Source: an uncultured Lachnospiraceae bacterium
GTDB taxonomy: Bacteria; Bacillota; Clostridia; Lachnospirales; Lachnospiraceae
Assembly: GCA_947652735.1 (NCBI GenBank)
Contig: CANTEG010000003.1
Location: 145,933 to 209,932 of the forward strand
Length of the DNA: 64,000 nucleotides
Direction of reading: 5' to 3'
The position numbers and the translations under genes are program-made. Below the pieces are notes generated by a model that was not told where the DNA came from, ran no database searches, and worked only from the letters and a program-made list of their open reading frames with translations. Numbering within the stretch: position 1 is the stretch's first letter; each line of letters begins with the position of its first letter. Positions 8,196 through 51,589 of the stretch are shown piece by piece.

Positions 8196-8210
8196 TTCAG
8201 GGGGATATCA

Positions 8211-15943: not shown

Positions 15944-15980
15944 TTGATTCGTTTACTACTTGCGGAGGAATAACGGAGAC

Positions 15981-18450: not shown

Positions 18451-18671
18451 AAATTTATAATTGACGGTTAGTTTAAATATTATGATATCTTGAGAAAAAG
18501 GACATGGAATGGAAGGAACTTTGGAAAGATTATTGAATAAGGGTCTTGGAAAAAAATAAAGGAAATAAATGGCATAGATAAAAGCTAATGGGATGGTGTG
18601 TATTGAAGAAATATGTCATGAAATATGTGTGTTTCCGAGAACGCTCAGGCTATTTTAGGGAGGGATTTATT

Positions 18672-20741: not shown

Positions 20742-20875
20742 CTGATATTTTGCGATAACAAAATCAACAAATATTATTGCAAAATTTACATTGATATGAT
20801 AAATTTAAAGGTAGCAGCATTTGTATTGCAAAAATGAAAAAACTAATTTTTAAAATTTAAAAAGGAGAGTGAGTT

Positions 20876-32618: not shown

Positions 32619-32924
32619 ATGAAAAGGGTAATTAAAACAGTCGTCATGGCACTTGTTGGAGCAATTTTGGGAGTTATAATAGGCAGCTTTTCCGCTTTTG
32701 GGGCAGACAAGCGGTTTTGGATATTATTTTGTATGGGCGTGCCAATAGGATGGACCTTTTTGGGAAAATATTTTGGGCAGCTTGTAACGAACAATTTTCC
32801 CTTGATGCTTTTTTTGCTTACCATGCGTGCCATGCTGGCAGGGCTAATTGGATGGGTACTAATTCCGATTGAGATTGTGCGTGGTTTAATCGATGTATTA
32901 GGAAGTAAGAGAGAAGAAGAATAA
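32619..32924 (+). CDS. Small membrane protein of unknown function
   Basis: A 101-residue hydrophobic protein with three to four helices (IKTVVMALVGAILGVIIGSF, FWILFCMGVPIGWTFLGKYF, LMLFLLTMRAMLAGLIGWVL) and a charged tail SKREEE. AAGGGAGG precedes ATG 32619. I do not recognise the family. It lies directly after the membrane-anchored sigma gene and behind a copy of the same ECF-type promoter. It may be part of that regulon, for example as a membrane partner. No terminator separates it from the Fn3 gene 126 bases downstream. Confidence 0.7.
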   Translation: MKRVIKTVVMALVGAILGVIIGSFSAFGADKRFWILFCMGVPIGWTFLGKYFGQLVTNNFPLMLFLLTMRAMLAGLIGWVLIPIEIVRGLIDVLGSKREEE

Positions 32925-33050: not shown

Positions 33051-35234
33051 ATGGAATTTATGAAAAGTCTAAAAAAAATAATAATGCTAAGTGTATTTCT
33101 TGTTGCTGCTATGGTAATGGGAGAGGCAGGGGCTGTTCTTGCAGCGGAGAATCAGACAGAATCTGATGATGTTACCCTTGACAAGGCAACTCATACGGCA
33201 GGTATCGATACGATTGAGACAACGTATCTCACGCAAAGCAACAGTGATTTATACAGCTATCTATCAATACATGTGTCAGGGTATGGAAGTAAGGCTGACA
33301 TATATATAAATGGTAAACTGGTTGAACAGGTAACGGAGGATAGTGCAGCCATAGATAATCCGGCACCCCAATTATCCGGGTATGCCAGTTTTAAAGATGT
33401 GTTATATGGCGGGACATATAAAATAGATGTCATCCCATATACATATACCGCATCAGGTCATGTTGCAGGTCCTGTCTTGTCAAAAACGGTTACGATACCT
33501 GCTTTTAATATGAAAAGGATGTCGTATTCACAAAATGGCAACAGGTCAGCGAATGGGTATGCAAAATTTGACGGAATAAAGCTTTGGCTAACTTGTGATG
33601 CGTGGCTGAATGAAGCACAATTTGAGATACAGCGAAAAGAAGGAAAAGGTGCATGGAAGACAATCGATAAAATAGCAAAGCAGGGCGTGTATGTTGATAA
33701 AACAGCTTCCTTCGGAAAAACATACCAGTACAGAATTCGGTCTGCCGCAGGACAAAATGCTTATGGCAAGGTTGCCGCAGGGAAGTGGTTTTATTTAAAG
33801 GGTGTTAAAAGTACAACACCGCCTGCAAACTTTGCCCTTTCTTTGCCAAAGACAGGGCGGGGTGTGGAAATAGATATCAAGTCAGAGGATATATGGGGTG
33901 GCGTGTCAGGATATGAGATTTACCGTTCTGCGAAAGAAAAAAAGGGATATAAAAAGATTGTAAGAACTGCGGAAAGTTCCTATGTGGACAAAACAGCGAA
34001 GAAAGGCACCTACTACTATAAAGTGAGGTCGTATTACTATGATACGGAAACAGGGAAGGTATATTACAGTACATTCTCAGAACCGAGATGTATTAAACTG
34101 ATATTAGATGAGATAACGGTTTTGGCGAAGCAGACGGGAAGCTGTCAGGTTACACTTGAGTGGAATAAGATTAAAGATGTATCATGCTATGAGGTATGGT
34201 ATAAATCGTCAATACAGGGAGATGCCTTTCAGCTTTATAAATCGACAAAGGGAACAAAGCTAAAGGTATCAGGACTGTTAAACAACACAAAGTATACCTT
34301 TGTGGTCAGGGCAAAAAAGAATGGGGCTTCCTATTATGCCAGTAATGACTGTGAGTATTATGTGGGGTTCAAGGAGATTCATCCGTATATTGCAAAAAAG
34401 AAGGTGACATCAAATAAGGAGAAGACAGAGGTTACCATAAAATCGACCATTAAGTGGAACCGAATATATGGAGCAAAGGGGATAACGATTGTTGGCACTA
34501 CCAAACGTGGTACTTCTACGGTTCTGAAGACATTGAAGGGAAGTGCAACAAGTTATACAGTGACATCTAAATGGACCGAACAAAGTGGGGGTTATAGAGA
34601 AATTACGATTTATGCGTTTAATGAAAAGGATAAGATATATAAGGATTTTAGCCTGTCTGATTGTGCCGAACTAGATGGTGTGAGCAAGCTTACCATAAAA
34701 AGAGCAGGTAATAAGGGATGCGTCATTTCATGGAAAGCGGTGTCGGGAGCAACCGAATATGCGGTATATAGACAGTCGCCTTACGGATATGAAGAATTTT
34801 TAGGAACGACTGATAAGTGTACTTTTAAAGATTTATATGTAGCACCGGGAGTAAAATATACCTACTATGTCAGGGCATTTAATGAAAATGTGCGTCTTGA
34901 TGGACACTGGGAGTCGTCGCTTGTGAAAGTTTATACACATAAGCTTGGCAGACCGAAAATAAAAAGTGTAAAAAATACTGCAAAGAAAACGGCAACAATA
35001 ACGTGGAGTAAGGTAACATATGCCGACAGGTATATTGTGTATCGTGCGACAGCAAAAAATGGGAAATATAAAAAGCTTGCAACTATAAGCAAGGGCAGGA
35101 CAAGCTATACTGACAAAAAGCTGAAAAAGGGAAAGACATATTACTACAAGGTAAAAGCAATGGCAAAAAACCCGGCAGGCTTTCATGTTTCTTCGGCATT
35201 GTCTGTGTACAAGGCTGTCAGGATTAAAAAGTAG
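33051..35234 (+). CDS. Secreted Fn3-repeat protein, cassette 1 gene A
   Basis: A 727-residue exported protein with a signal peptide ending VLAA (about residue 32). An N-terminal beta domain (~60-160, SGYGSKADIYINGKLVEQV, then GGTYKIDVIPYTYTASGHVAG) is followed by about six Fn3-like modules, for example SGYEIYRSAKEKKGYKKIV, YEVWYKSSIQGDAFQLYKS, TEYAVYRQSPYGYEEF and YIVYRATAKNGKYKKL. It carries the A-type cysteines (SNDCEYY, DKCTFKD). It ends in RIKK without LPxTG, SLH or other anchor. ATG 33051 follows AAGGGAG; upstream in-frame starts at 32976 and 33030 are not supported. It forms a pair with the next gene, 17 bases away. Confidence 0.82.
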   Translation: MEFMKSLKKIIMLSVFLVAAMVMGEAGAVLAAENQTESDDVTLDKATHTAGIDTIETTYLTQSNSDLYSYLSIHVSGYGSKADIYINGKLVEQVTEDSAAIDNPAPQLSGYASFKDVLYGGTYKIDVIPYTYTASGHVAGPVLSKTVTIPAFNMKRMSYSQNGNRSANGYAKFDGIKLWLTCDAWLNEAQFEIQRKEGKGAWKTIDKIAKQGVYVDKTASFGKTYQYRIRSAAGQNAYGKVAAGKWFYLKGVKSTTPPANFALSLPKTGRGVEIDIKSEDIWGGVSGYEIYRSAKEKKGYKKIVRTAESSYVDKTAKKGTYYYKVRSYYYDTETGKVYYSTFSEPRCIKLILDEITVLAKQTGSCQVTLEWNKIKDVSCYEVWYKSSIQGDAFQLYKSTKGTKLKVSGLLNNTKYTFVVRAKKNGASYYASNDCEYYVGFKEIHPYIAKKKVTSNKEKTEVTIKSTIKWNRIYGAKGITIVGTTKRGTSTVLKTLKGSATSYTVTSKWTEQSGGYREITIYAFNEKDKIYKDFSLSDCAELDGVSKLTIKRAGNKGCVISWKAVSGATEYAVYRQSPYGYEEFLGTTDKCTFKDLYVAPGVKYTYYVRAFNENVRLDGHWESSLVKVYTHKLGRPKIKSVKNTAKKTATITWSKVTYADRYIVYRATAKNGKYKKLATISKGRTSYTDKKLKKGKTYYYKVKAMAKNPAGFHVSSALSVYKAVRIKK

Positions 35235-35251
35235 GCAAGGAGGAAAATCGT

Positions 35252-37423
35252 ATGGGACGGATAAAAAAATTAATGGCAGGTGTTGTACTTGCCGCTGCCA
35301 TAGCGATTGGTGGGACTGGTACGGTATTTGCGGCAACGCATGAAACAGAAACGGGTGAAAAACCAAATTATGAAATTCAAAATCCTGAGCTTGATACGAC
35401 TGTGGGGACATCTATATATTTAGATGTGACATATGATAAGAAAACGAAGTATATCAATATGTCATTTACCGGATATGCCAGAAAATGCGATGTTTTCATA
35501 AATGGCAAGAATATTGCCACTACATTCAGTTCAAGTGAAACGGCGGATGGACTGCCGCCTATCAGCTGGGAGAAACAGATTCGGGGAATAGCTGGCGGAA
35601 GCTACATGGTCAAGGTTATACCATATCGTTATTCTGACGGGTCCTATGTTGCAGGTGCGGCTGTTGAAAAGAAGCTTACCATTCCTGCACCCCAAATTTT
35701 AAATTTAAATGTAAAATCAGTATGTAATACTTATGAAAAGGGCTATGGGAAAAATCCGTATAACGATATTTGGTGGACATGGGCCGATGTCTCGTCAGAT
35801 TGTGAGGTATGGCGCAGGGAAGGAACGGGGGCATGGCAGAAGCTTGGTACAATCACTTATTATATGTATGATATGGATGTCGTTCCGGGGAAAAAGTATC
35901 AATACCGGATACGGGTTGCAGAGCAGAAGGATGACTATGTAACGGTACCAGCGGGGAAATGGGTGACATCGAAATCGGAACAGATGAAGGTTGCAGATAT
36001 CAGTAAGGTTTCCTTTGAGTATAATGATAATATCTCTTTGACCATAAACCGGGAATTTGGCGGTCTTATTTCCGGATACGAAATCTGGCGTTCCACCAAG
36101 CAGACAAAGGGCTACAAAAAAATTGCAACGGTTGCGGAAAATACATATACCGACAAAAAGGTAAAGCGTGGAACTTATTATTATAAAGTAAGATGCTATT
36201 ATTATGATAGTAATACAAGAAAAAAGAGTTATGGTACATTTAGTGAGGCATATCCAATCAGTATTATTTTAGGTGACCTGCAGATGACGGTAAAACGTGC
36301 AGGAAACAGTGCGGTAAAGCTTCAGTGGAATAAGGTGGCAGGAGCTTCCCAATATGAGGTATGGTATAAAAGCTATACAGTGGGCGATGCGTGGAAGCGT
36401 GTAAAAACAACAAAAGGAACGAGCGTAAAAATTACAGGACTGAAAAATAATATGACCTATGATTTCAGGGTGAAGGCAATTAAAAAAAAGAAAGGAAAAA
36501 TTTATTATACCAGAGATACAAAAAGCTTTACTGTGGGATTTCAGGTACCGGAGCCTGAGGTGACAAAACGAACGGTGACGGTATCGGCAGATAAGTCTGT
36601 GTATACAATAAAGACGACCATTAAGTGGAATAGGGTATATGGAGCAAAGCAAATACGAATCATAGGAGTAAGGATGGGGCATACGGAAAATGGAGTTTGG
36701 ATACCGGACAAGGAAACCGTACTGAAAACCTTAAAAGGAACAGCGACCAGCTATACGCTTTCAACCAGGCATAAAAAATGGAATGACGGCTATGATTATA
36801 TATTGCTGATGGCTGTGAATGACAAAAATGAGGAACGTTACTATCAGGGGCGGATTTATCTACGGGCATATGCTCCTACAAAGGTTACGGTGAAAAGAAA
36901 GGATGCGGAAAACGCAGTATTATCATGGAAAGCACAGCCGGGAGCAACCGAATATACTGTGTATGCAAAGACACCGTATCAATCCGGTTATGATTATGTA
37001 ACATCTACTACCGATACTTCTTTTACACAATCCGTAACCTTGGGTGCTTATTATATGTATTATGTTGAGGCATACAATTCTACCATCAACATCGGCAGCG
37101 GAGGGGAGGAGCCGACGGTAACAGTGTATAAGCATAAGCTTGGTGTACCAAAGGTGAAAAGCATAAAAAATGCTGCATCAAGGCAGGCCGTTATCACATG
37201 GAGCAAGGTGACAAATGCCAGGAAGTACGTGGTTTACCGTGCGACAAGTAAGAATGGAAAGTATAAAAAAATAGCAACAACGACAAAGACAAGCTTTACC
37301 GATAAGAAGCTTAAGAAAGGGAAAAACTATTACTACAAGATTAAGGCAGCGGGCACGAATGATGCAGGTATTACTGTAATGTCCTCTTTCTCCAAGGTGA
37401 AAGCGGTTAAGATTAAAAAGTAA
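35252..37423 (+). CDS. Secreted Fn3-repeat protein, cassette 1 gene B
   Basis: A 723-residue exported paralogue of the preceding protein. It has a signal peptide (MGRIKKLMAGVVLAA to TVFAA), an N-terminal beta domain with ARKCDVFINGKNIATTF, then about six Fn3-like modules including SGYEIWRSTKQTKGYKKIA, YEVWYKSYTVGDAWKRVKT and YVVYRATSKNGKYKKIA. It shows the B-type traits: IWRST in the second module, PAGKWVTS after the first, and none of the A-type cysteines. The end, SSFSKVKAVKIKK, is shared with the B genes at 39846 and 44579 almost base for base. AAGGAGG precedes ATG 35252. A terminator follows. Confidence 0.82.
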   Translation: MGRIKKLMAGVVLAAAIAIGGTGTVFAATHETETGEKPNYEIQNPELDTTVGTSIYLDVTYDKKTKYINMSFTGYARKCDVFINGKNIATTFSSSETADGLPPISWEKQIRGIAGGSYMVKVIPYRYSDGSYVAGAAVEKKLTIPAPQILNLNVKSVCNTYEKGYGKNPYNDIWWTWADVSSDCEVWRREGTGAWQKLGTITYYMYDMDVVPGKKYQYRIRVAEQKDDYVTVPAGKWVTSKSEQMKVADISKVSFEYNDNISLTINREFGGLISGYEIWRSTKQTKGYKKIATVAENTYTDKKVKRGTYYYKVRCYYYDSNTRKKSYGTFSEAYPISIILGDLQMTVKRAGNSAVKLQWNKVAGASQYEVWYKSYTVGDAWKRVKTTKGTSVKITGLKNNMTYDFRVKAIKKKKGKIYYTRDTKSFTVGFQVPEPEVTKRTVTVSADKSVYTIKTTIKWNRVYGAKQIRIIGVRMGHTENGVWIPDKETVLKTLKGTATSYTLSTRHKKWNDGYDYILLMAVNDKNEERYYQGRIYLRAYAPTKVTVKRKDAENAVLSWKAQPGATEYTVYAKTPYQSGYDYVTSTTDTSFTQSVTLGAYYMYYVEAYNSTINIGSGGEEPTVTVYKHKLGVPKVKSIKNAASRQAVITWSKVTNARKYVVYRATSKNGKYKKIATTTKTSFTDKKLKKGKNYYYKIKAAGTNDAGITVMSSFSKVKAVKIKK

Positions 37424-37444
37424 CGGAATATAAAAGTTTAACGG

Positions 37445-37484
37445 AAAAATCCCATGATAAATTTTTTTCATGGGATTTTTTATT
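37445..37484 (+). terminator. Terminator between cassettes 1 and 2
   Basis: Stem AAAAATCCCATGA / TCATGGGATTTTT with a 10-base loop and trailing T-rich DNA. Confidence 0.88.
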
Positions 37485-37505
37485 ATATGCCATAAATTTG
37501 GGATG

Positions 37506-37511
37506 TATAAT
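37506..37511 (+). promoter_or_regulatory. Candidate -10 element of cassette 2
   Basis: Perfect TATAAT followed by ACGTATATATTATG. Similar blocks (TATAAT then TATGTATTATG) stand before cassette 3 and, less exactly, before cassette 4. No good -35 is visible. Confidence 0.4.
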
Positions 37512-37561
37512 ACGTATATATTATGTAAGGGTAGAAAATACATCAAAAAAGGAGGAACTGT

Positions 37562-39829
37562 ATGAGAGGAATGAAAAGGTTAAAAACAACAATAGTAAGC
37601 TTATTTCTAGCCGTTGCCATGATTATGGGTGAGGCGGGGGCTGTTTTTGCTGCCGCACCGCAGCAAAAAGAAGCAGGTACAATGCTAAGTGAACAAGACG
37701 ATTATGGGGGAAATAAGCCTGACGTCTATGATGTTGACATGAATACGGCAGATAATGTGGCAGAGGTAAGGCATTTTGCTGCGTGGTATATAAATAAGAT
37801 CATGTCTCCAAGCTCTATAGTTATTAGGTTTTCGGGGTCAGGTGCTAAATTTGATATATATATAAATGGCAAGTTATATAAGGAAATAATCAATGATTCA
37901 GCATCTGTGGATAATCCGGCACCCTATAATTATGATATCATAGAAAAATTTTATGGCATTTTATATGGTGAAACATATAAAATAGAGGTCATCCCTTATG
38001 CGTACACCGAAACGGGATATGTTGCAGGTACTGCCGTATCAGATACAGAGACAGTAACTCGTTTTTATGCATCTATGTATGCATCCGGGGCTACGACAAT
38101 TGCCGAAAATGGGTACAGTAAACCAGAGGGGATAAAACTTGAATTTAATGTTGGCTGGATGAAGGAAGCGTTAATTGAGGTGCAGCGCAGAGAAGGAAAA
38201 GGTGCATGGAAAACAATTGCAAAAGTATCAGGGTCGGAGTATCTGGATAAGACGGCTTCTTTAGGAAAGACATATCAGTATCGTGTCAGGTCTCTCAGCA
38301 GAAAAAACGATTATGGTGAGACAACGCAGAGCCAGTGGTGGTATATACTGGACTACGATAGAGGCAAGATTATTCATTATACTGTGCCGAATGCGGACCT
38401 GTCTCTTTCCTATGAAGGAACAGGCAGTGGTGTGAGTATAAATGTTTGCTCGATATATGCACCAGATATTGTTTCAGGTTATGAGATTTATCGTTCAACC
38501 AAGGAGTCAAAGGGGTATAAGAAGGTTGCAAAGCTTGCAGGTACTACGTATGTAGACAAAAAGGTGAAGAAGGGTGCTTATTATTACAAGGCAAGGGCAT
38601 ATTACTATGACACATCAACGGGGAAGACGTATTATGGTGCATTTTCCGACCCACAATATATAAGACTTGCATTAGGCAGTATCTATGTAAATGCAAAGCA
38701 GACGGGAAACCGTCAGGTTACACTTACGTGGAACAAAATAAAAGGTGTATCGGATTATGAAGTATGGTATAAGTCGGATATAAAAGGAGATGTCTATCGG
38801 CTTTATAAATCGACCAAAGGAACGAAAATGAAGGTATCAGGACTTTCGGATAATACAAATTATGCATTTACCGTCAGGGCAAAAAAGAATGGTTCCGTAT
38901 ATTATGCAAGTAATGATTGCAGCTATCGCGTGGGATTTAAAATAGCGGTTCCATATGTGGCAAAGAGAAAGGTTGTCTCAAATAAGGCAAAGACCGCGGT
39001 TACGATAAAGTCAACAATTAAGTGGGACAGGATATATGGGGCAAAAAAAATCAAGATTATTGGTGTCGTAGACGGATATTTTCTAGCTGGCGATTACGTA
39101 CCACCACAGGAGAAGGTACTAAAGACATTAAAAGGGTCAGCAACGAGTTATACCCTTACCATAAATATAACAGAAAAAAATAAGTATGAGGGCTATGATG
39201 AAATTAAGGTTGTTGCCGTCAGTGGAGATGAGGAACTGGCCGCTGATGTTAATGGATTTAATAACCTGAATGAAACAAGTAAGCTTACTGTAAAAAGAGC
39301 AGGCAATAAAGGAGGCGTTATTTCATGGAAGGCGGTACAGGGAGCAACGTCATATAAAGTATACAGACAGTCGCCATATGGACATAGTATATACATAGGA
39401 ACAACTGACAAGTGCACCTATAAGGATTTAGGTGTAACACCGGGTGTTACATATACATATAGTATTGTGGCAAGAAATGATGAATTGAGGCTATCTTCAG
39501 ATGAGTCTGGTGTGGTTACGAAAGCTTATACCCATAAGCTTGGTACCCCAAAGATAAAAAGTGCAGTAAATACGGCGAAAAGTACTGTTACAATTAAATG
39601 GAGTAAGGTTAGCCTGGCAGACAGCTATGTAATATACCGTGCAACAAGCAAGAATGGTAAATATAAAAAGCTCGCAACGATAAGTAAGGGCGGGACAAGC
39701 TATATTGATAAAAAGGTAAAAAAGGGCAAATCCTATTACTATAAGGTAAAGGCGAAGGCAAAAAATGCGGCAGGTCTGACCGTGTTATCTAAATTGTCAG
39801 CATATAAGGCTGTCAGGGTTAAAAAATAA
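37562..39829 (+). CDS. Secreted Fn3-repeat protein, cassette 2 gene A
   Basis: A 755-residue exported protein. The signal peptide core AVAMIMGEAGAVFAAA matches the MGEAG-VLA signature of all A-type members. The N-terminal domain (SGSGAKFDIYINGKLYKEI, LYGETYKIEVIPYAYTETGY) comes before Fn3-like modules such as SGYEIYRSTKESKGYKKVA, YEVWYKSDIKGDVYRLYKS and YVIYRATSKNGKYKKLA. A-type cysteines lie in SNDCSYR and DKCTYKD. In the fourth module it has the inserted loop DGYFLAGDYVPPQEK, which gene A of cassette 1 lacks. AAAGGAGGA lies before ATG 37562, and gene B follows after 16 bases. Confidence 0.82.
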   Translation: MRGMKRLKTTIVSLFLAVAMIMGEAGAVFAAAPQQKEAGTMLSEQDDYGGNKPDVYDVDMNTADNVAEVRHFAAWYINKIMSPSSIVIRFSGSGAKFDIYINGKLYKEIINDSASVDNPAPYNYDIIEKFYGILYGETYKIEVIPYAYTETGYVAGTAVSDTETVTRFYASMYASGATTIAENGYSKPEGIKLEFNVGWMKEALIEVQRREGKGAWKTIAKVSGSEYLDKTASLGKTYQYRVRSLSRKNDYGETTQSQWWYILDYDRGKIIHYTVPNADLSLSYEGTGSGVSINVCSIYAPDIVSGYEIYRSTKESKGYKKVAKLAGTTYVDKKVKKGAYYYKARAYYYDTSTGKTYYGAFSDPQYIRLALGSIYVNAKQTGNRQVTLTWNKIKGVSDYEVWYKSDIKGDVYRLYKSTKGTKMKVSGLSDNTNYAFTVRAKKNGSVYYASNDCSYRVGFKIAVPYVAKRKVVSNKAKTAVTIKSTIKWDRIYGAKKIKIIGVVDGYFLAGDYVPPQEKVLKTLKGSATSYTLTINITEKNKYEGYDEIKVVAVSGDEELAADVNGFNNLNETSKLTVKRAGNKGGVISWKAVQGATSYKVYRQSPYGHSIYIGTTDKCTYKDLGVTPGVTYTYSIVARNDELRLSSDESGVVTKAYTHKLGTPKIKSAVNTAKSTVTIKWSKVSLADSYVIYRATSKNGKYKKLATISKGGTSYIDKKVKKGKSYYYKVKAKAKNAAGLTVLSKLSAYKAVRVKK

Positions 39830-39845
39830 CGGAGGGAGGAATTTT

Positions 39846-42050
39846 ATGGGACGAATAAGAAAAATAGTAGTAAGTATATGTTTTGCTGCCGTTATGTTGA
39901 TTGGTGGGGCAGGTACTGCATTTGCAGCGGAGCAGGCACTGTTGACAGATACAGCGTCAGGTCTTGAAATTCATGACCCGTCATTTGATACTGCAAGTGC
40001 ATCTTATGTAGATAGTGTGAGAACAATTGACAAAAGGGATGAAATAGCAATATGTGTACGTGGCGGACGTGGGAGTAAATTTGAAATTTATGTAAATGAC
40101 AAATTAGTTCACACTATTGAAAATGGAGGAAGTGCTGAGGAACCTGCACCATATCTGTCAGAACAGTGGTATTATTTTACTGATGTTATACAAGGGGCGT
40201 CCTATCAGGTGAAAGTAGTGTCATATAGTTATTCAGCAAATGGAGATGTGGCAGGCGGGTCAGCGGTAACACAGTGTAATTTAGACGAGGTGGTGCTTAA
40301 GGATTTACAAATGTCCACAAGCTATGGTGTAGAAGGAACGTACGGCACCTTCGATGTACTTGTCATGGGATATATGTGGTATGGCGGCATAAAGATTTCA
40401 TGGAAGAATTCCTATTTAGGCACGGGTCTTGTGCGACATGAAATATGGAGAAGAGAAGCAAAGGGAGCTTGGAAGAAGCTTGGTGTGGCGAGTGATACTG
40501 AATTTTATGATAGAACTGCTGTACCAGGGAAAAAGTATCAGTACCGGATACGTGTTGAGGCAAGAAAAAATGAATATGCAAGTGTACCAGCGGGCAAATG
40601 GCTTACATCAGAAGCTACGAAGATGTTGATTGCAGATACGGAAGTTTCTCTTGATTATATTGACAATGTCACCTTGACAATGAGCCCAGGTAGGGGGCTT
40701 ATTTCAGGATATGAAATTTGGCGTTCGACGAAATCGGCAAAGGGGTACAAAAAAATTGCAACGATTGCAGAAAATACATACACTGACAAGGAGGTAAAGA
40801 GCGGAACCTATTATTATAAAGTAAGAAGCTATTATTATGATAAATACACAGGAAAGAAAGCCTATGGCGCTTTTAGTACGGTTCAGCCGATAAAGCTTAT
40901 TTTGGGAGATTTATCTGTAACAGCGAAGCAGACGGCGAACAGTTCGGTAAAGCTTCAGTGGAACAAGGTCAAGGGTGCGTCTAAATATGAGGTATGGTAT
41001 AAATGTAATGTGCCGGGAGATGCATGGAAGCGTGCAAAAACAACAAATGGAACGAGCTGCAAGGTGACAGGTCTTAAAAATAATCAGGTTTACAGTTTTA
41101 GGGTAAAAGCAATTAAAACCAATAACAGTAAAATTTATTACACAAGGGATACAATAGACTTTAAACTGGGATTTAAAGCACCTGTTCTTAAAACACCGAA
41201 AAGAACGGTGGTTTCTAAACAAAAAAATACAATGACGGTAAAACATACCATTAAATGGGACAGGGTATATGGTGCAAAAAAAATCCGTATTATAGGAGTA
41301 ACATGGGGACATTCTGAAAATGGACAATACATACCTGCGAAAGAAACAGTACTGAAAACCTTAAAGGGGACTGCTACAAGTTACACGATTTCTATGAAGT
41401 ATACGGACGGAAACAGTAAATATGATTATATTCGTGTGGTTGCAGTGAATGACGGGGATGAGCGGTTCAGTGAACACTATAGTCTTCATGAACTGGATTA
41501 TGTAAAAAGCATTAAGGCGAAAAGGAAAAATGCAACCTGCGTAACAGTATCATGGAAGGCTGTGCCTGGAGCATCAGGTTATCACGTAGATGTAAAAATT
41601 CCATATGATGGAGAATATACGAGTGGTACTTCTGTGAAGGGTACCTCAATTGATATTTTCGTAACTCCGGGGGCTTATTATAAGTTTTGTGTAACGGCAT
41701 ATAATTATGAGCATGGTTTTACTTATATTGGAGATGAGCCGAAGGTCGTGACGTATAAGCATAAGCTTGGTGTGACCAAAATTAAGAGTGCAAAAAACCC
41801 CGCGGCAAGGAAAGCTGTGATTCAGTGGAGCAAGGTAACAAATGCTGATAAATACGTGGTTTACCGTGCGACAAGTAAGAATGGAAAGTATAAAAAAATA
41901 GCAACAACGACAAAGACAAGCTTTACCGATAAGAAGCTAAAGAAAGGGAAAACCTATTATTACAAGATTAAAGCGGCTGGAACGAACGCGGCAGGTATTA
42001 CTGTAATGTCCTCTTTCTCCAAAGTGAAAGCGGTTAAGATTAAAAAGTAA
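39846..42050 (+). CDS. Secreted Fn3-repeat protein, cassette 2 gene B
   Basis: A 734-residue exported B-type paralogue with signal peptide ending TAFAA. The N-terminal domain contains GRGSKFEIYVNDKLVHTI and IQGASYQVKVVSYSYSANGD. Later modules include SGYEIWRSTKSAKGYKKIA, YEVWYKCNVPGDAWKRAKT and YVVYRATSKNGKYKKIA. From about base 41853 to the stop its DNA is nearly identical to the end of the cassette 1 B gene, while the N-terminal halves differ strongly. This pattern suggests recent exchange between copies. GGAGGGAGGA precedes ATG 39846. A terminator and a TATAAT element follow. Confidence 0.82.
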   Translation: MGRIRKIVVSICFAAVMLIGGAGTAFAAEQALLTDTASGLEIHDPSFDTASASYVDSVRTIDKRDEIAICVRGGRGSKFEIYVNDKLVHTIENGGSAEEPAPYLSEQWYYFTDVIQGASYQVKVVSYSYSANGDVAGGSAVTQCNLDEVVLKDLQMSTSYGVEGTYGTFDVLVMGYMWYGGIKISWKNSYLGTGLVRHEIWRREAKGAWKKLGVASDTEFYDRTAVPGKKYQYRIRVEARKNEYASVPAGKWLTSEATKMLIADTEVSLDYIDNVTLTMSPGRGLISGYEIWRSTKSAKGYKKIATIAENTYTDKEVKSGTYYYKVRSYYYDKYTGKKAYGAFSTVQPIKLILGDLSVTAKQTANSSVKLQWNKVKGASKYEVWYKCNVPGDAWKRAKTTNGTSCKVTGLKNNQVYSFRVKAIKTNNSKIYYTRDTIDFKLGFKAPVLKTPKRTVVSKQKNTMTVKHTIKWDRVYGAKKIRIIGVTWGHSENGQYIPAKETVLKTLKGTATSYTISMKYTDGNSKYDYIRVVAVNDGDERFSEHYSLHELDYVKSIKAKRKNATCVTVSWKAVPGASGYHVDVKIPYDGEYTSGTSVKGTSIDIFVTPGAYYKFCVTAYNYEHGFTYIGDEPKVVTYKHKLGVTKIKSAKNPAARKAVIQWSKVTNADKYVVYRATSKNGKYKKIATTTKTSFTDKKLKKGKTYYYKIKAAGTNAAGITVMSSFSKVKAVKIKK

Positions 42051-42069
42051 CTGAATAAAAAAATTGACG

Positions 42070-42113
42070 GAAATATCCTATGATAAGTGCCTGCTTTTCA
42101 TAGGATATTTTCT
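42070..42113 (+). terminator. Terminator between cassettes 2 and 3
   Basis: Stem GAAATATCCTATGA / TCATAGGATATTTTC around a 14-base loop, ending in TTTTC. Confidence 0.8.
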
Positions 42114-42141
42114 TGTGTGACAAAAATATAGCGTTTATAAT
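42113..42141 (+). promoter_or_regulatory. Candidate promoter of cassette 3
   Basis: TTGTGT (42113-42118), 17 bases, perfect TATAAT (42136-42141), then GTATGTATTATG. It abuts the preceding terminator, giving each cassette its own transcription unit. Confidence 0.5.
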
Positions 42142-42198
42142 GTATGTATTATGGTGCGGTACAAAGATGAAAAGAGTTAAGAAAAGAGGAGGAAATGT

Positions 42199-44565: not shown

Positions 44566-44578
44566 TGGAGGGAGATAT

Positions 44579-46792
44579 ATGAGACGAATTAAGAAAACCC
44601 TTTTAAGCCTGGCTCTTGCCGCGTTTATGGTTATGGGAGAGGCGGGGATTACCCTTGCTTCTGAAAATGAAATGACAGCAGATACAGAGACAGCGTATGA
44701 GGTAAATGACCCGAAGCTGAATAAGGATAGTGTTGCCGTAGTTAATGAGCTTATTGTCAAAGAAGATGGCATAGATGCGTTAAGTATAGAGATTGAGGGG
44801 TATGGTACAAAATTTGATATTTATGTCAATGATGTATTTTACGACACCTACAATAATCCCACACCAGGGTACCTTGATATTCCTGCACCATTTTTTTCAA
44901 GAGAAATACATTTTAGAAATATGATACAGGGAGCAGATTATACAGTCAGGGTTATACCTTATAGTTATTCGGCAAGTGGCGACGTTGCAGGGACATCCAT
45001 GGAAAAAACAGTCAGCACGATTGCGAAGACACCTACAAAGCTTAACATAAGTATGCGGTCACAGCAGGATAAATACGGGTATAAAAAACCTTATGTATGG
45101 CTTTCTGTGTCAGGTTCAGATTCGCTGGTGGAAATATGGAGAAAAGAAAGCAAGGGTGCATGGACAAAGCTTGGGGAAGGAGACCACTACTATTATGATT
45201 ATACAATATGTGCAGGAAAAGCATATAAGTATAGGGTTCGTACTATCGGAGGGAAAAATGCTTATGCAAGTGTGAAACCTGGTGCATGGGTTACATCGGA
45301 AATCGGGAAAGCATCAGTTCCAAATTGTACAATGGATATTGACTATACGGATTATGTAGTTATAAATGTTGACCGTGGGAATAATTCCCAAGGTGTTTAC
45401 TCGGGTTACGAGATTTGGCGGTCTACAAAAAAAGACAAAGGATATAAGAAAGTCGCTACTGTCTCTGAAACCAAATATACAGATAAAGCAGTTAAAAGCG
45501 GTACCTATTATTACAAGGCGAGATGCTATTATTATAATACCGCTACAGGGAAAAAGATATATGGGGCATTCACAGATATTAAGACGGTCAAAGTGCTGAT
45601 GGGTGACATCAATTTATCCGTAAAACGGACGGCAAAGGATACTGTAAATATTGAGTGGAACAGGGTAAATGGTGCCCAAAAGTATGAGGTATGGTACAAG
45701 TCCGATTTGTCAGGTGACGGATGGAAGCTTTATAAAACGACAAAAAAGGTAAGTTGCAATGTATCAAAGCTGTCAGATAATACAAGATATTATTTCAGGG
45801 TAAAAGCCATAAAAGGAAATGGAGCAAAAACTTATGTGGTTAGTCGGGATGTCACTTACACTATGGGTTATATGAGACCAATTCCCGGAGTCTCGAAAAT
45901 AAAGATAATTCCGTCGACGCTCAATGACACGCTTACCATTAAATCTACGATTAAATGGAATCGGATATATGGTGCAGACAAGATACGGATTGTGGCAACA
46001 ACAGGGGCACATTATGAAGATGGCGTATATGTTCCACGGCAGGAAAAGGTAATAAAAACCTTAAAGGGTTCAGCAACGAGCTATACGCTTACTACCAAGG
46101 TTACCGCTGAAAATAAGGGCTATACCCAGATTGCTGTGGTTGCGGTTAAAGGCGATGAGGAATTTTCGTCTACCATATATTCGTCAGATTATGTCAGGCT
46201 GAATAATGCAACAAAGGTTACCATAAAGAGAAAAAGTGCTACAAGTGCGACAATATCGTGGAATGCCGTCACAGGGGCAACAAGCTATGACATATACAGA
46301 TGCTTGCCATATGAGTATACGGAAGATAAAGATTTGCGCAGTATAAGTTCATATGTGGGAAACAGTGATGGCACCTCCTATATAATTGAAGATATAACAC
46401 CTGGGGTTAATTATATTTATTTCGTGGTACCCCAAAATGATTTAGTAAGCTCAATGTACTTGCACGATGTCGTGCAGGGTGTAATGCAGGTGACGTACAA
46501 CCACAAGCTTGGTGTGACCAAAATTAAGAGTGCTACAAACACAGCGGCAAGAAAAGCAACCATTCAGTGGAGCAAGGTAACAAATGCCAGTAAATACATA
46601 GTGTATCGTGCAACGAGTAAGAACGGAAAATATCAAAAGGTTGCAACCGTGAAAACAACGACCTATACGGACAGTAAGCTTTCAAAGGGAAAGACCTATT
46701 ACTACAAGATTAAAGCGGCGGGAACGAACGCGGCAGGTATTACTGTAATGTCCTCTTTCTCCAAGGTGAAAGCGGTTAAGATTAAAAAGTAA
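44579..46792 (+). CDS. Secreted Fn3-repeat protein, cassette 3 gene B
   Basis: A 737-residue exported B-type protein. Unlike the first two B genes it has an A-like signal peptide (MRRIKKTLLSLALAAFMVMG EAGITLA). Its N-terminal domain reads GYGTKFDIYVNDVFYDTY with IQGADYTVRVIPYSYSASGD. Modules include SGYEIWRSTKKDKGYKKVA, YEVWYKSDLSGDGWKLYKT and YIVYRATSKNGKYQKVA. The sixth-module loop is longer than in the other B proteins (LPYEYTEDKDLRSISSYVGN). The last ~60 bases are nearly identical to those of the other two B genes. GGAGGGAG precedes ATG 44579. Confidence 0.82.
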   Translation: MRRIKKTLLSLALAAFMVMGEAGITLASENEMTADTETAYEVNDPKLNKDSVAVVNELIVKEDGIDALSIEIEGYGTKFDIYVNDVFYDTYNNPTPGYLDIPAPFFSREIHFRNMIQGADYTVRVIPYSYSASGDVAGTSMEKTVSTIAKTPTKLNISMRSQQDKYGYKKPYVWLSVSGSDSLVEIWRKESKGAWTKLGEGDHYYYDYTICAGKAYKYRVRTIGGKNAYASVKPGAWVTSEIGKASVPNCTMDIDYTDYVVINVDRGNNSQGVYSGYEIWRSTKKDKGYKKVATVSETKYTDKAVKSGTYYYKARCYYYNTATGKKIYGAFTDIKTVKVLMGDINLSVKRTAKDTVNIEWNRVNGAQKYEVWYKSDLSGDGWKLYKTTKKVSCNVSKLSDNTRYYFRVKAIKGNGAKTYVVSRDVTYTMGYMRPIPGVSKIKIIPSTLNDTLTIKSTIKWNRIYGADKIRIVATTGAHYEDGVYVPRQEKVIKTLKGSATSYTLTTKVTAENKGYTQIAVVAVKGDEEFSSTIYSSDYVRLNNATKVTIKRKSATSATISWNAVTGATSYDIYRCLPYEYTEDKDLRSISSYVGNSDGTSYIIEDITPGVNYIYFVVPQNDLVSSMYLHDVVQGVMQVTYNHKLGVTKIKSATNTAARKATIQWSKVTNASKYIVYRATSKNGKYQKVATVKTTTYTDSKLSKGKTYYYKIKAAGTNAAGITVMSSFSKVKAVKIKK

Positions 46793-46833
46793 CTGAATAT
46801 AAAAGACTTGACGGGTTATCAGAACCGGTATTG

Positions 46834-46866
46834 AAGGCTGCCGCAAAATAGTGTGGCAGCCTTTGA
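46834..46866 (+). terminator. Terminator between cassettes 3 and 4
   Basis: Stem AAGGCTGCCGCA / TGTGGCAGCCTT (one G-U pair), loop AAATAG, then TTGAT. The T run is short. Confidence 0.7.
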
Positions 46867-46918
46867 TATTGTTATTCTATTTTCCTTGCACATGGTATAT
46901 TTTAGGTTTATAATATAA

Positions 46919-46924
46919 GCATTA
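46919..46924 (+). promoter_or_regulatory. Candidate -10 element of cassette 4
   Basis: Perfect TATAAT within GGTTTATAATATAAGCATTA, about 90 bases before ATG 47017. The best upstream TTGCAC (46886) is 27 bases away, too far for a normal -35. Confidence 0.35.
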
Positions 46925-46978
46925 TTGCATGAAACCGTCCATTTTCAAAAACAAATCTTTGTTGGGAAAAGTTTTTGT

Positions 46979-47004
46979 TGGGAAATGGGCATGTATTCAA
47001 GGTA
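46979..47004 (+). repeat. Degenerate 'K-WA-IQ' copy of the dispersed motif, copy 6
   Basis: Reads TGGGAAATGGGCATGTATTC then AAGGTA, matching the TAATGGGCAGATGTTCAAG half of the motif at most positions. As in other copies it is directly upstream of a GGAGG ribosome site. The match is weaker than for the other five. Confidence 0.35.
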
Positions 47005-47016
47005 AGGAGGAAATGT

Positions 47017-49413
47017 ATGAGAAGGATTAAAAAGACAATTTTAAGCTTATCTCTCGTTGCGGCCTTGGTTATGGGTGAGGCAGGAGCTGTGCTTGCAGCC
47101 GAACCAAACCAGACGGCAGGGGATGCAGAGATAAGTGCAGATGTCGGTTACACGGAGGAAGCAGCAGATGATGCGGCAGGGGAGGAAGTAGAAGAAGCGG
47201 CAGATGACGAAACTGAGGAAGCTTCAGGGATTATTGATGACGAAGCAGATGTAGCTGTCGATGAAGTGGAAGAAGCTGCTACTGACGCGGCAGGTCAGGA
47301 ACAGGCAACTATGGGAGAGGCGCAGAAGGATACATCAGAGGTTATAACTGAGGATGTCAATCTGGACAAGGCAACCGAGGCGTCACTCACTAATCTGAGC
47401 GCTGTTTTGTGGGGAGAGTATGTGGACATTGCATTTTCTGGATATGGCTGCAAGTTTGACGTATACATTAACGACAAGCTTTTCCGGACAATTGACAATT
47501 CGGATAATGTAAATGAATATAATACGGCACCGTCCACTTATTACGAGAGAATAAGTTTTTATGATGTATTATATGGAGCAACTTACAAAGTGGAAGTGGT
47601 TCCGTATGTGTATACCGAAAACGGACCTGTTGCAGGAAAAGCTGACTCATGTATTGTTTCAGTGCCGGCACTTGAAATTTCAAATGTAACATATAGTTCC
47701 GTGGGTGAGGAAAAGAAAAACGGATATCAAAAATCGGCAGGTATAAATGTAAGATGGAGTGCATATGATATAGCAGGAACTGAATATGAATTACAGCGAA
47801 AAGAAGGCAATGGTGCATGGAAAGTCATTGCAAAAACCAGTGACAAAAGCTATCAGGACAAAACTGCCGTTATTGGAAAGAAGTATCAGTACAGAGTAAG
47901 GTATGCAGGCGGCAAAAATGATTATGGGCAGGCTGCTGCAGGTAAGTGGGTTTACATAAAAAATGTTGTGGTTAGCGTTTCACCAGTGGCAGCCATGAGT
48001 GTAAATTACAAGGGCGTTGGCGATGGTGTTTCAATTTATGTGTCCTACGATAGAAGTGGTTTGTGCTCAGGCTATGAGATTTACCGTTCCACAAAAAAGA
48101 CAAAGGGCTACAAGAAAATTGCAAGGCTTACAGGTACCGAATATGAAGATACAAAGGTTAAGAGTGGTACTTACTATTACAAGGCAAGAGCTTATTATTA
48201 CGACGAGGAAACAGGAAAAACATACTATGGTGAATTTACGGAACCAAAACCGGTTAAGTTGATATTTGGTGTCATAGGTGGATGGGCAAAACAGACAGGA
48301 ACGAGTCAGGCTACCCTTGAGTGGACTCCGGTTGCAGGTGCATCAAGCTATGAGGTATGGTATAAAACAACAATAAAGGGTGATGCTTACAAGCGGTATA
48401 CGACAACAACAGGCACAAAGCTTAAAATATCAGGACTTTCAAATAATACAGGTTACAATTTTAAGATAAGGGCGAAAAAGAACGGGACATCCTATTATAC
48501 AAGTAATGAGTGCTACTGTTATATCGGCTTTAAGGCACCATCGCCATCAATAACGAAATCAAAGGTTACATCAAATAAGGCAAAAACAAGCCTTACCATA
48601 AAATCAACTATCAAATGGGATAGAATATATGGTGCAAAGAAGATACAGATTATTGGCATTACACATAGTTACGACAATGAAGGAAATTCTGTTACAAAAG
48701 AAAAGGTAATTAAGACTTTAAAGGGAACAGCTACTAGCTATACCCTTACCACAAAGCTTACCACGAAAAATAAGGGTTATGATGACATTCGGGTGGTTGC
48801 AGTTAACGGTAAGGATGAAGCAGTTGGATACTTATGGAATGATTACAAAAAGCTGCTTCCAACGAGTAAGCTTACCGTAAAGAGAGCAAATAGTTCAGGC
48901 AGTGTTGTTTCATGGAAGGCAGTGGCAGGTGCGACTGAATATGAAGTATATAGAACTTCACCTTATGGGCACTATATGTACCTTGGAACCACAACTAAGT
49001 GCACATATAAGGATTTAAATGTTACACCTGGTGTGCAGTATACATATCAAATTGTGGCAAAAAACAGTAAGCTGAACATAACGACAGGCTTCGCTCCGAC
49101 TACAAAAACTTATACACATAAAATTGGCAAAACAAAGATAAAGAGTGCAACAAACTCTGTTGCAAAAAAAGCAACTGTCACATGGGGCAAGGTTGCATAT
49201 GCAAAAAATTATGTTGTGTATCGTGCAACAAGCAAAAATGGCAAATATACAAAGGTTGCAACAGTAAAGAATGGTAAGACTACCTATACGGACAAAAAGG
49301 TTAAGAAGGGCAAAACCTATTACTACAAGGTTAAGGTAGTAGGAAAAAATGCGGCAGGACTTACTGTTTCATCTGCTATGTCAGCCGTTAAGTCTGTAAA
49401 GATTAAAAAGTAG
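47017..49413 (+). CDS. Secreted Fn3-repeat protein, cassette 4 gene A (acidic insert)
   Basis: A 798-residue exported A-type protein, the longest of the set. After the signal peptide (LVMGEAGAVLAA) comes an acidic Ala/Glu/Asp-rich stretch of about 80 residues (EEVEEAADDETEEASGIIDD and similar). The shared domain follows (GYGCKFDVYINDKLFRTI, LYGATYKVEVVPYVYTENGP), then Fn3-like modules such as SGYEIYRSTKKTKGYKKIA, YEVWYKTTIKGDAYKRYTT and YVVYRATSKNGKYTKVA. A-type cysteines are in SNECYCY and TKCTYKD. ATG 47017 follows AAGGAGG and matches the other A starts; the frame from 46975 reads through repeat DNA. Gene B follows after 16 bases. Confidence 0.82.
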   Translation: MRRIKKTILSLSLVAALVMGEAGAVLAAEPNQTAGDAEISADVGYTEEAADDAAGEEVEEAADDETEEASGIIDDEADVAVDEVEEAATDAAGQEQATMGEAQKDTSEVITEDVNLDKATEASLTNLSAVLWGEYVDIAFSGYGCKFDVYINDKLFRTIDNSDNVNEYNTAPSTYYERISFYDVLYGATYKVEVVPYVYTENGPVAGKADSCIVSVPALEISNVTYSSVGEEKKNGYQKSAGINVRWSAYDIAGTEYELQRKEGNGAWKVIAKTSDKSYQDKTAVIGKKYQYRVRYAGGKNDYGQAAAGKWVYIKNVVVSVSPVAAMSVNYKGVGDGVSIYVSYDRSGLCSGYEIYRSTKKTKGYKKIARLTGTEYEDTKVKSGTYYYKARAYYYDEETGKTYYGEFTEPKPVKLIFGVIGGWAKQTGTSQATLEWTPVAGASSYEVWYKTTIKGDAYKRYTTTTGTKLKISGLSNNTGYNFKIRAKKNGTSYYTSNECYCYIGFKAPSPSITKSKVTSNKAKTSLTIKSTIKWDRIYGAKKIQIIGITHSYDNEGNSVTKEKVIKTLKGTATSYTLTTKLTTKNKGYDDIRVVAVNGKDEAVGYLWNDYKKLLPTSKLTVKRANSSGSVVSWKAVAGATEYEVYRTSPYGHYMYLGTTTKCTYKDLNVTPGVQYTYQIVAKNSKLNITTGFAPTTKTYTHKIGKTKIKSATNSVAKKATVTWGKVAYAKNYVVYRATSKNGKYTKVATVKNGKTTYTDKKVKKGKTYYYKVKVVGKNAAGLTVSSAMSAVKSVKIKK

Positions 49414-49429
49414 TTAAGGGAGGATATAT

Positions 49430-51589
49430 ATGAGACGAATTAAGAAAACAATTTTAAGCTTATCTCTTGTCGCTGCTATGGTTATGGGTGAAGCAGGTAT
49501 TGCACTTGCAGCGGAACCGGCAAAGGCAGCCGACACAGAAGCAGGTTATGAGATTACTGATCCTGACCTTAACGGGGCAGCCACTGCATCAGTGGATTCT
49601 CTTAATGTAAATGTATATGAGTGGAACAGCAGCGTAAATATAAGCTTTGCAGGCAATGGGTCAAAGTTCAAGATTTATGTAAATAATAAATTATATCATA
49701 CATATGACAATACCAGCAATGCAAATGCTGACAATCCAGCTCCTGCCATGTATTATGCTTCTGTAAATTTTACGGAGGCGATTAAAGGCGGCAGTTACAC
49801 AATTAAGGTTGTGCCATGCAGCTGGTCGGAAAACGGAGATGTGGACGGAACTCCTATGTCAAAGACTGTTACATTACCTGCAAGCCAACTGTCGGATTTG
49901 ACCGCATATGCAAGTTATACTACGCAGGAGAATGGATACACAACTCCATATGGATATGTATCATGGCAAAAGGATTCCGGTAATATCAAGGTTGAGGTAT
50001 GGCGAAAAGAAGGAAAGGGTGCGTGGAAGAAGCTTGGGGAAACAGATGACTGGAATTATAGAGACTATTCTGTTATTCCGGGAAAGAAGTACCAGTACCG
50101 TATCCGTACAGCCGCAGCTAAAAACGCCTATGTTACAGTGGCGGCAGGAAAGTGGCTTACATCAAAAACAGCAAATAAGATAACGGTATCAGATGTAAGA
50201 ATCAACCTTGAATATGTTGACGGTGTTGCCATAAATATTTCTCAACAGGGAGGGCTTGTATCAGGTTATGAGATTTACCGCTCAACAAAAAAGACAAAAG
50301 GCTACAAGAAAATAGCCACAATCGCAGATGCAGAATATACGGATAATGTCAAGAGCGGAACCTATTATTACAGGGTAAAAGCATATTATTATGATGCAGC
50401 AACAGGAAAGAAGTACTATGGAAAACTCAGCGATGTCCAGCCAATAAAGCTTGTTTTAGGAACGCTTGATGTGACGGCAAAGCAGTCGGGCAAAAATACG
50501 GCAAAGGTTGAGTGGAACAAGGTAAGTGGAGCCCAGAAGTATGAGGTATGGTACAAATCTGATATTGAGGGCGATGCATGGAAGCTGTACAAAACAACAA
50601 CTGGTTTAAGCTGCAAGGTGACAAAGCTTTCAAATGACACCCGTTATAGGTTCAGAATTAAAGCAATCAAGGGAACAGGTTCCAATACATATATTACAAA
50701 TAATACGGCAAGCTGCTTTATTGGTTTTTCTGCTCCGTCTGCCTACATAGCAAAGAGAAAGATTACGACAACAAATGCAGCCAAGAAAGTTATCATAAAG
50801 TCGACCATCAAATGGGACAGAGTCTATGGTGCAAGTAAAATTCGCATCGTTGGTGTAAAGGACGGAAAAGAAACAGTGCTGAAAACCTTAAAAGGAACAG
50901 CTACAAGCTATACCGTTTCTACAGCAATTACGGCAGGCAACAAGGGATATGATTCCATACGTGTCGTTGCCGTTAAGGGGAAGGAACAGGATTATACATC
51001 TATAGGTTATGGCAGCCATAAGCTGCTTGATGCCGTTAAAAAGGTAACAGTTAAGAAGAGCGGCACAGGTGCCAAAATCTCTTGGAATGCAGTGCCGGGA
51101 GCAACAAACTATACAGTATACAGGGTTAATCCTTATAATAATAAACAAAATAGCGGCTTTTACCTTGCATCGACTGATAAGACTTATTATGTAGATGAAA
51201 ATATTGAGCCGGGTGTAAATTATGTTTATTATGTCAAGGCAAACAATTATGATTTGTATATTTACCAAGTAGATGAGTCTGCACGTGTCCTGTATAACAA
51301 AAAGCTTGGCACGACAAAGATTACATCCATAGTAAACTCAGATGCAAAGAAAGTAACGCTTACATGGCAGAATGTTGCAAGTGCACCAAAGTATACCATT
51401 TACCGCTCCACAAGCAAGAACGGAAAGTATACAAAGGTAGCGACTACGACAAATACAACCTTTACTGACAGTAAGGTGATAAAGGGCAAGACATACTACT
51501 ATAAGATTAAGACGACAGGAAAGAATGCCGCAGGCTTTACGTTTACATCTGCATATTCAGGTGTAAAGGCAGTCAAGATTACAAAGTAA
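49430..51589 (+). CDS. Secreted Fn3-repeat protein, cassette 4 gene B
   Basis: A 719-residue exported protein, last of the eight. The signal peptide ends IALAA. The N-terminal domain has GNGSKFKIYVNNKLYHTY and IKGGSYTIKVVPCSWSENGD. Fn3-like modules include SGYEIYRSTKKTKGYKKIA (IYRST as in A proteins), YEVWYKSDIEGDAWKLYKT and YTIYRSTSKNGKYTKVA. It lacks the A-type cysteine pair and the long fourth-module insert. Its C-terminus (YSGVKAVKITK) departs from the KIKK end shared by all other members, so it seems to have escaped the homogenisation seen in the first three B genes. GGGAGGA precedes ATG 49430. Confidence 0.82.
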   Translation: MRRIKKTILSLSLVAAMVMGEAGIALAAEPAKAADTEAGYEITDPDLNGAATASVDSLNVNVYEWNSSVNISFAGNGSKFKIYVNNKLYHTYDNTSNANADNPAPAMYYASVNFTEAIKGGSYTIKVVPCSWSENGDVDGTPMSKTVTLPASQLSDLTAYASYTTQENGYTTPYGYVSWQKDSGNIKVEVWRKEGKGAWKKLGETDDWNYRDYSVIPGKKYQYRIRTAAAKNAYVTVAAGKWLTSKTANKITVSDVRINLEYVDGVAINISQQGGLVSGYEIYRSTKKTKGYKKIATIADAEYTDNVKSGTYYYRVKAYYYDAATGKKYYGKLSDVQPIKLVLGTLDVTAKQSGKNTAKVEWNKVSGAQKYEVWYKSDIEGDAWKLYKTTTGLSCKVTKLSNDTRYRFRIKAIKGTGSNTYITNNTASCFIGFSAPSAYIAKRKITTTNAAKKVIIKSTIKWDRVYGASKIRIVGVKDGKETVLKTLKGTATSYTVSTAITAGNKGYDSIRVVAVKGKEQDYTSIGYGSHKLLDAVKKVTVKKSGTGAKISWNAVPGATNYTVYRVNPYNNKQNSGFYLASTDKTYYVDENIEPGVNYVYYVKANNYDLYIYQVDESARVLYNKKLGTTKITSIVNSDAKKVTLTWQNVASAPKYTIYRSTSKNGKYTKVATTTNTTFTDSKVIKGKTYYYKIKTTGKNAAGFTFTSAYSGVKAVKITK

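Follow-up and report, generated by a model that had tools for sequence, protein, structure and literature searches.

A window of 64,000 nucleotides from an uncultured Lachnospiraceae bacterium (assembly GCA_947652735.1, contig CANTEG010000003.1; "the window" always refers to this whole stretch) contains, at positions 33051-51589 of the + strand, eight intact, head-to-tail genes for exported proteins with Fn3 domains. They belong to two classes, A and B, and follow one another as four tandem A-B pairs (Table 1). The coordinates of the open reading frames bear out a preliminary description of this DNA, which had noted eight exported paralogues of 719-798 residues in strict A-B alternation, with gaps of 13-17 bases within the pairs and of 138-224 bases between them; the three gaps between pairs measure 138, 148 and 224 bases. 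Longer frames starting with TTG are possible for A1 and A4 (32976 and 46975); the ATG located behind a good ribosome site was chosen by eye. A Sec-type signal peptide is present at the start of all eight proteins, as judged by eye from the alignment.

Two other species of the same genus, G048 and G011, carry three pairs and one pair, which together with the four pairs of the window make a set of 16 proteins. The order is A then B in the eight pairs of the three species, and the within-pair gaps range from 8 to 17 bases. In the tree of the 16 proteins, the eight A are split from the eight B at 100/100, as was expected if the A genes form one clade and the B genes another; the split is found in 100% of 200 bootstrap trees, and none of 500 shuffles of the labels gives an equally good one. 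Two loop indels are class-specific in 16/16 proteins: the A proteins lack two residues in a loop of domain 4, and the B proteins lack two in a loop of domain 7. Among the eight proteins of the window, the whole-length identity is 50-58% within A, 44-54% within B and 41-51% between A and B, and domain 6 (D6) is 60% alike among the A proteins versus 38% among the B proteins. These eight proteins were also scanned in stretches of 60 columns (302 gene-by-stretch comparisons): the best match is of the same class in 253 cases, the protein's own partner in 21, and a member of the other class from another pair in 28, the shares expected by chance being 3/7, 1/7 and 3/7, respectively.

The trees built from A only and from B only agree in joining pair 1 of the window to pair 1 of G048, with pair 2 of the window beside them, and in joining pair 4 of the window to pair 2 of G048 and to the sole pair of G011. 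The distance matrices of A and B are strongly correlated (Mantel r = 0.965, p = 0.00025, 20,000 label permutations). Since A and B form separate clades, since their trees agree (except for pair 3), since the indels follow the classes and since two relatives contain whole pairs, the proposal of the preliminary description that the pair, and not the single gene, was the unit of duplication is well supported by the sequences. The A row of G011 carried one extra residue before the ATG in the 16-protein tree, in the tree rooted on locus L069 (see below), in the substitution rate analysis and in the comparisons of domains and charges; this residue is absent from the tree rooted on single genes and from the Mantel, indel and closest-match analyses.

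Table 1. Features of the Fn3 pair array and of the DNA around it (window coordinates).
Feature	Position	Strand	Description
A1 secreted Fn3-array protein	33051..35234	+	727 residues; clade A at 100/100; AlphaFold model
B1 secreted Fn3-array protein	35252..37423	+	723 residues; clade B; 17 bases from A1
Inter-pair spacer 1	37424..37561		terminator hairpin, fold z = -4.07; TATAAT in register with the other spacers
A2 secreted Fn3-array protein	37562..39829	+	755 residues; clade A
B2 secreted Fn3-array protein	39846..42050	+	734 residues; clade B; 16 bases from A2
Inter-pair spacer 2	42051..42198		terminator hairpin, fold z = -5.48; TATAAT element
A3 secreted Fn3-array protein	42199..44565	+	788 residues; clade A; acidic N-terminal tail of 75 residues, net -26
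B3 secreted Fn3-array protein	44579..46792	+	737 residues; clade B; 13 bases from A3
Inter-pair spacer 3	46793..47016		strong terminator 46826-46871, fold z = -5.58; TTGCAC-N17-TATAAT
A4 secreted Fn3-array protein	47017..49413	+	798 residues; clade A; acidic N-terminal tail of 93 residues, net -32
B4 secreted Fn3-array protein	49430..51589	+	719 residues; clade B; AlphaFold model; 16 bases from A4
Terminator hairpin 3' of the cluster	51590..51670		fold z = -5.61
Sigma-70 factor of the extracytoplasmic function (ECF) type, long C-terminal extension	30709..32481	+	590 residues; Pfam Sigma70_r2, r4_2
Hydrophobic protein just before A1	32619..32924	+	101 residues; no NCBIfam match above cut-off

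Full-length members of the family occur in three of the 37 genomes of the genus that were searched (that of the window, G048 and G011), which contain four, three and one pairs, all in A-B order; the count of pairs in relatives that the preliminary description called for thus gave whole pairs in both species. In the other 34 genomes no full-length match was found; three further genomes of the genus match at E <= 0.001, over short Fn3 stretches only. Restricting the count to the 18 genomes with a completeness of 90% or more and a contamination of 5% or less gives the same three carriers; outside this subset many genomes are incomplete, which makes absence less certain there. None of the three carrier species yielded a lone full-length A or B.

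The pairs lie in a shared context. Upstream, G011 and the window share, as far as similarity between the translated sequences shows, a Wzm/Wzt-type exporter, a methyltransferase-like protein, a DUF6077 protein and a 518-residue protein. Downstream, both have an ATP-binding cassette (ABC) ATPase and a SufB-like protein. The upstream names come from Pfam matches of the window copies, while the two downstream names were given by eye. In G048, the upstream side is as in the window; the three whole pairs are followed by the end of the contig, and the SufB-like gene, 98% identical, is on a separate short contig. Both contig ends apparently fall in one kind of repeat-bearing gene (by eye), so the array of G048 may run on into downstream genes of the window type. 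The SufB-like protein itself (window 52527-53444) shows 97-98% identity between the three pair-bearing species; in the remaining 34 genomes of the genus, matches are at 25-27% only (13 genomes) or absent (21 genomes). As a side remark, the record JAMPBO010000012.1 (L067) is titled Bacteroides sp., yet its genus code is that of the window genome, and the title is probably wrong.

Relatives of A and B also exist as single genes. The family-wide sample consisted of 397 genomes from 334 genera, with at most two scored candidates per genome; G048 and G011 are evidently outside it. Four of these genomes have matches at E <= 1e-40: that of the window, and G195, G228 and G417 with one each. Within the genus of G417 the gene is found in two of eight genomes, and within that of G228 in seven of 29, with one match each at E <= 1e-30. 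This makes ten genomes of three other genera with one relative apiece at the thresholds used (L215-L217, L221-L227). A second family member was not found beside any of the ten, in the 18-20 kilobases examined for three of them and the approximately 5 kilobases examined for seven. The single relatives are 836-1007 residues long and cover 94-99% of the A/B profile; their residues 31-130 are acidic, although the narrower aligned tail columns are not strongly so.

Since unpaired relatives occur in other genera, a protein of the A/B build can, to judge from the genes, exist alone. In a tree rooted on three of the single genes, A and B are sister classes, A being held at 100/99 and B at 77/79; with L069 as the sole root, the B proteins do not come out as a clade. 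Because of the unpaired relatives in ten genomes of three genera, it is most likely that the pair arose when a single gene gave rise to A and B, and that the pair was copied afterwards.

L069 (Clostridiales SUG1695, positions 2-4474) contains two adjacent distant members of the family, 15 bases apart, the first of which is cut at its 5' end by the contig. Its upstream member has an acidic N-terminal stretch and its downstream member has none. These two genes are not orthologues of A and B: they group together, and a split that puts A with the first and B with the second is rejected (p-AU 4.3e-5). It may therefore be that pairing arose twice, or that the two genes of L069 have been homogenised. 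An acidic tail was also considered as a mark of class A and rejected, since long tails are present in only two of the eight A proteins (A3 and A4) and in none of the eight B proteins.

Regarding transcription, the preliminary description placed a terminator in every gap between pairs, and the folding of the three spacers agrees with it. Stretches of 77-93 bases from these spacers and from the region after B4 were folded and compared with 200 shuffles each, and for each of the four hairpins 0/200 shuffles fold as well. A consensus terminator scan calls one of the four (46826-46871); the other three are known from folding alone. TATAAT is conserved in five of six spacers and is in register across the three spacers of the window, and TTGCAC-N17-TATAAT precedes pair 4 and its orthologous pairs in the two other species. 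The presence of promoters is argued from the conservation of the longer element in these three orthologous spacers and of TATAAT in five of six, and from nothing else. With a terminator hairpin and a TATAAT element in front of them, pairs 2-4 look like separate transcription units. Neither a clear terminator nor a clear promoter was found in the 126 bases that precede pair 1 (z -1.78, with 6/200 shuffles as good; best promoter match 8/12), and this pair may be transcribed from the operon of the upstream sigma-like gene. An RNA element is not supported, as the window has no Rfam match at gathering scores.

The eight proteins match 14 Pfam families in total; fn3 and GH85_C (the C-terminal domain of GH85 enzymes) are matched by 8/8. 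None of the 14 is a catalytic family (Amidase_3, Glucosaminidase and GH25 included), and there is no anchor family among them; neither an LPXTG motif followed by a transmembrane end nor a lipobox was seen by eye. NCBIfam gives no match for A1 or B4, the two that were scanned. The AlphaFold models of these two proteins (mean pLDDT 85.7 and pTM 0.68 for B4, 84.6 and 0.67 for A1) both have seven beta-sandwich domains (D1-D7) behind a disordered start, the count being taken from the strand pattern. In a Foldseek search of the PDB, Fn3/Ig arrays, among them titin, gp130 and fibronectin, make up most of the 50 hits listed per model, at TM-scores that are low over the whole length; in a viral structure search, the matches listed are mostly generic Fn3/Ig arrays. 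With an fn3 match and several predicted beta-sandwich domains in a row, A and B qualify as Fn3-array proteins. A phage origin was considered and rejected: there is a single match in 50,697 phage records, which covers 33% of B4 at 27% identity. Nor do the proteins belong to a phage tail family, the PHROGs tail hits of three members spanning about one Fn3 domain each.

The mature proteins are basic, with isoelectric points (pI) of 9.0-9.7, and D7 has a net charge of +15 to +25 in 16/16 ingroup proteins. D7 is also the most conserved domain among the eight proteins of the window (67% within A, 72% within B). D1 and D2 are 34-44% alike within the classes; they rank lowest in conservation among the folded domains of A and, together with D6, of B. 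The orthologues of A1, B1, A4 and B4 differ by 22-29% in protein sequence, with 0.5-1.0 synonymous substitutions per site (dS); the SufB-like protein nearby, with its 97-98% identity, gives a scale for this divergence. The whole-gene ratio of nonsynonymous to synonymous substitutions (dN/dS) is 0.17-0.30 in six comparisons of these genes with their orthologues, which indicates that the four genes are under purifying selection. Diversifying selection acting on whole domains was looked for and not seen, the dN/dS per segment (NG86) ranging from 0 to 0.53 in eight orthologue comparisons of pairs 1 and 4.

Upstream of the pairs, at window positions 7776-17420, lies a locus of the teichoic acid type. 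It encodes a cytidylyltransferase, two Glyphos_transf proteins (CDP-glycerol glycerophosphotransferase-type) fused to glycosyltransferase domains and an MBOAT acyltransferase; the upstream ABC exporter consists of an ABC2 protein and a protein with a Wzt_C domain. On the basis of these families, the locus is expected to make a teichoic-acid-like anionic polymer. Two further Fn3 proteins, one with a right-handed beta-helix, are encoded beside it (18588-22138); counterparts of the two are found in G048, and at this place G011 encodes Fn3 proteins that resemble the second.

Nearer to the array, the 518-residue protein (28874-30430) has no match in Pfam or NCBIfam, and its C-terminal half is putatively metallo-beta-lactamase-like (by eye); it is 84% and 74% alike in the two other pair-bearing species and at most 36% elsewhere in the genus. 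The sigma-like protein that comes next is 83% alike to the G048 copy and adjoins the pairs of the window and of G048 but not that of G011; its C-terminal region has a probable membrane segment, again by eye. It has matches in 36 of the 37 genomes of the genus, many of them to the sigma domain only, and one in G015 is 50% alike. The small hydrophobic gene before A1 has a counterpart of 103 residues in G048, 56 bases before the first pair, and none in front of the pair of G011.

The explanation that we favor, and that we consider probable as a whole, is that A and B are paired, non-enzymatic Fn3 rods which sit on an anionic wall polymer and were copied as a unit derived from a single gene. Each two-gene unit, probably an operon of its own, would yield one protein of each class; both would be exported by means of their Sec-type signal peptides as rods of seven Fn3/Ig-type domains. 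The basic, conserved D7 probably keeps the rods non-covalently on the polymer made by the upstream locus, and the N-terminal domains, which diverge faster, probably make contact with the target of the rod. A single-copy gene would have duplicated into A and B, and then the pair as a unit, to give the four, three and one pairs of the three species. Joint action of A and B is suggested by the close spacing within pairs and by the lack of lone genes, and a heteromer of the two is a fair inference. A location in the wall fits, since wall hydrolases of other genera bear Fn3 arrays of the same subtype. The retention of a surface protein by wall teichoic acid has been described in another bacterium (PMC10335673).

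A number of observations weigh against this explanation or blur it. The contact between A and B and the binding to the wall are inferred, and a basic pI is no proof that teichoic acid is bound. Partnerless relatives exist in other genera. The A tree joins A3 of the window to A3 of G048 weakly (66/58), and the B tree puts B3 of G048 nearer to the pair-4 group (96/97); given that pair 3 is placed differently in the two trees, shuffling or gene conversion is possible there, and the order within the pair-4 group is not firm either. Over its whole length, B4 is marginally nearest to its own partner (51.3% to A4 versus 50.6% to B2 and B3), and the signal peptides of A4 and B4 are 90% alike, which suggests a local exchange at the 5' end of these genes. 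No co-adaptation within pairs beyond shared history is seen when the domains of A and B are compared. The selection figures cover pairs 1 and 4 only, pairs 2 and 3 having no close orthologue. As for the promoters, a consensus scan finds no excess over shuffled sequences (53 found; shuffle mean 57.2), and the individual matches in the spacers are not clearly better than those of shuffles.

The alternatives differ mainly in what A and B would do for each other. They may work separately, the unit being shared only as a result of whole copying and the extra copies providing dosage or variety; we lean against this, while taking it seriously. The single-gene relatives in ten genomes of three genera speak in its favor, and so does the fact that A and B differ in conserved domains (60% versus 38% alikeness in D6); however, the three species have no lone full-length A or B, despite a time for loss that corresponds to an orthologue dS of 0.5-1.0. 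It may conversely be that A and B form one heteromer in which each pair is matched to itself, so that the window would encode four orthogonal surface assemblies. The constant order with short gaps in 8/8 pairs and the congruent trees would agree with this, and the distant L069 likewise carries two neighbouring relatives separated by 15 bases. We find it rather doubtful, because joint duplication is enough to explain congruent trees, because single relatives exist, and because, over D1-D6, coming from the same pair and not from different pairs adds no more than one percentage point to the likeness of an A and a B; same-pair and different-pair values are 67% versus 62% in D7 and 59% versus 53% in the signal peptide. 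The more complete version, in which one wall holds four such self-matched A:B rod assemblies, all derived from one ancestral rod that was duplicated inside the unit before the unit itself was copied, is unlikely. If it were true, the species with one, three and four pairs would be a natural series for reading the evolution of paired binding specificity.

That the copies mainly supply different N-terminal domains, as a repertoire of variable antigens or phage receptors, would account for the contrast between D1/D2 and D7 (34-44% versus 67-72% alike within classes) and for a pair number that varies between species. We consider it unlikely: no domain exceeds a dN/dS of 0.53 in the eight comparisons of pairs 1 and 4, and inspection of the spacers by eye revealed no invertible promoter, no search for inverted repeats having been made. 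Last, A and B could be accessory scaffolds of wall hydrolases, that is, Fn3 arrays which have lost their enzyme domain, considering that arrays of the same subtype belong elsewhere to Amidase_3, Glucosaminidase and GH25 proteins (9/10, from six loci). To judge by the ten single relatives, which match the A/B profile over 94-99% of its length and are themselves longer (836-1007 residues), the long build looks old, and we hold this origin to be very unlikely. In this array a two-gene surface unit, and not a single gene, appears cleanly as what was amplified, and living relatives display the single-gene, one-pair, three-pair and four-pair states. If A and B bind each other, the evolution of paired specificity in duplicated genes could be tested directly on them.

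Multi-gene surface units that duplicate as a whole have been described before. The csc clusters (cscA-cscD) of Lactobacillus plantarum and its relatives, according to Siezen 2006 (PMC1534035), encode exported surface proteins only and occur as several clusters per genome; they evolved as units, with component trees that are basically the same and with early as well as recent cluster duplications, and the authors propose, without demonstrating it, that the products form surface complexes. The A and B genes resemble them in being duplicated whole and in the agreement of the component trees (r 0.965, except for pair 3). The csc clusters, as described there, consist of four gene families, some with anchors, WxL or sugar-related domains, whereas the window has two families made of Fn3 arrays only, in tandem; we set the two systems apart on the basis of descriptions. 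No WxL family is found among the Pfam hits of the eight members.

Similar in domain content are the Fn3 wall hydrolases of the Lachnospiraceae type. Adjacent co-directional Fn3 genes are present in 13 of 76 loci, L069 apart (L070, L071, L074, L075, L077, L079-L081, L085, L092, L112, L115 and L141). Ten proteins from six of these 13 loci were tested: fn3 is present in 10/10 and GH85_C in 9/10, both models being matched by A and B as well, and nine of the ten have a wall-hydrolase domain, for example an amidase followed by a glucosaminidase, whereas Pfam detects no enzyme domain in A or B. The single relatives share the build, with almost the whole profile covered and residues 31-130 acidic as in A3 and A4, but no partner gene is seen beside them in the stretches examined. 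The PE/PPE genes of mycobacteria also form adjacent pairs for exported proteins, have been amplified, and encode known heterodimers; they are alpha-helical and use type VII secretion. The likeness is that of paired, amplified genes for exported proteins; PE/PPE proteins are not Fn3 proteins, and we claim no relation. Among the literature matches listed, no title or abstract start deals with this A/B Fn3 family. The array also points to an undescribed and apparently enzyme-free Fn3 family in Lachnospiraceae-type bacteria: surface-gene units that duplicate whole are of a kind already known, and the A/B family itself appears to be new.

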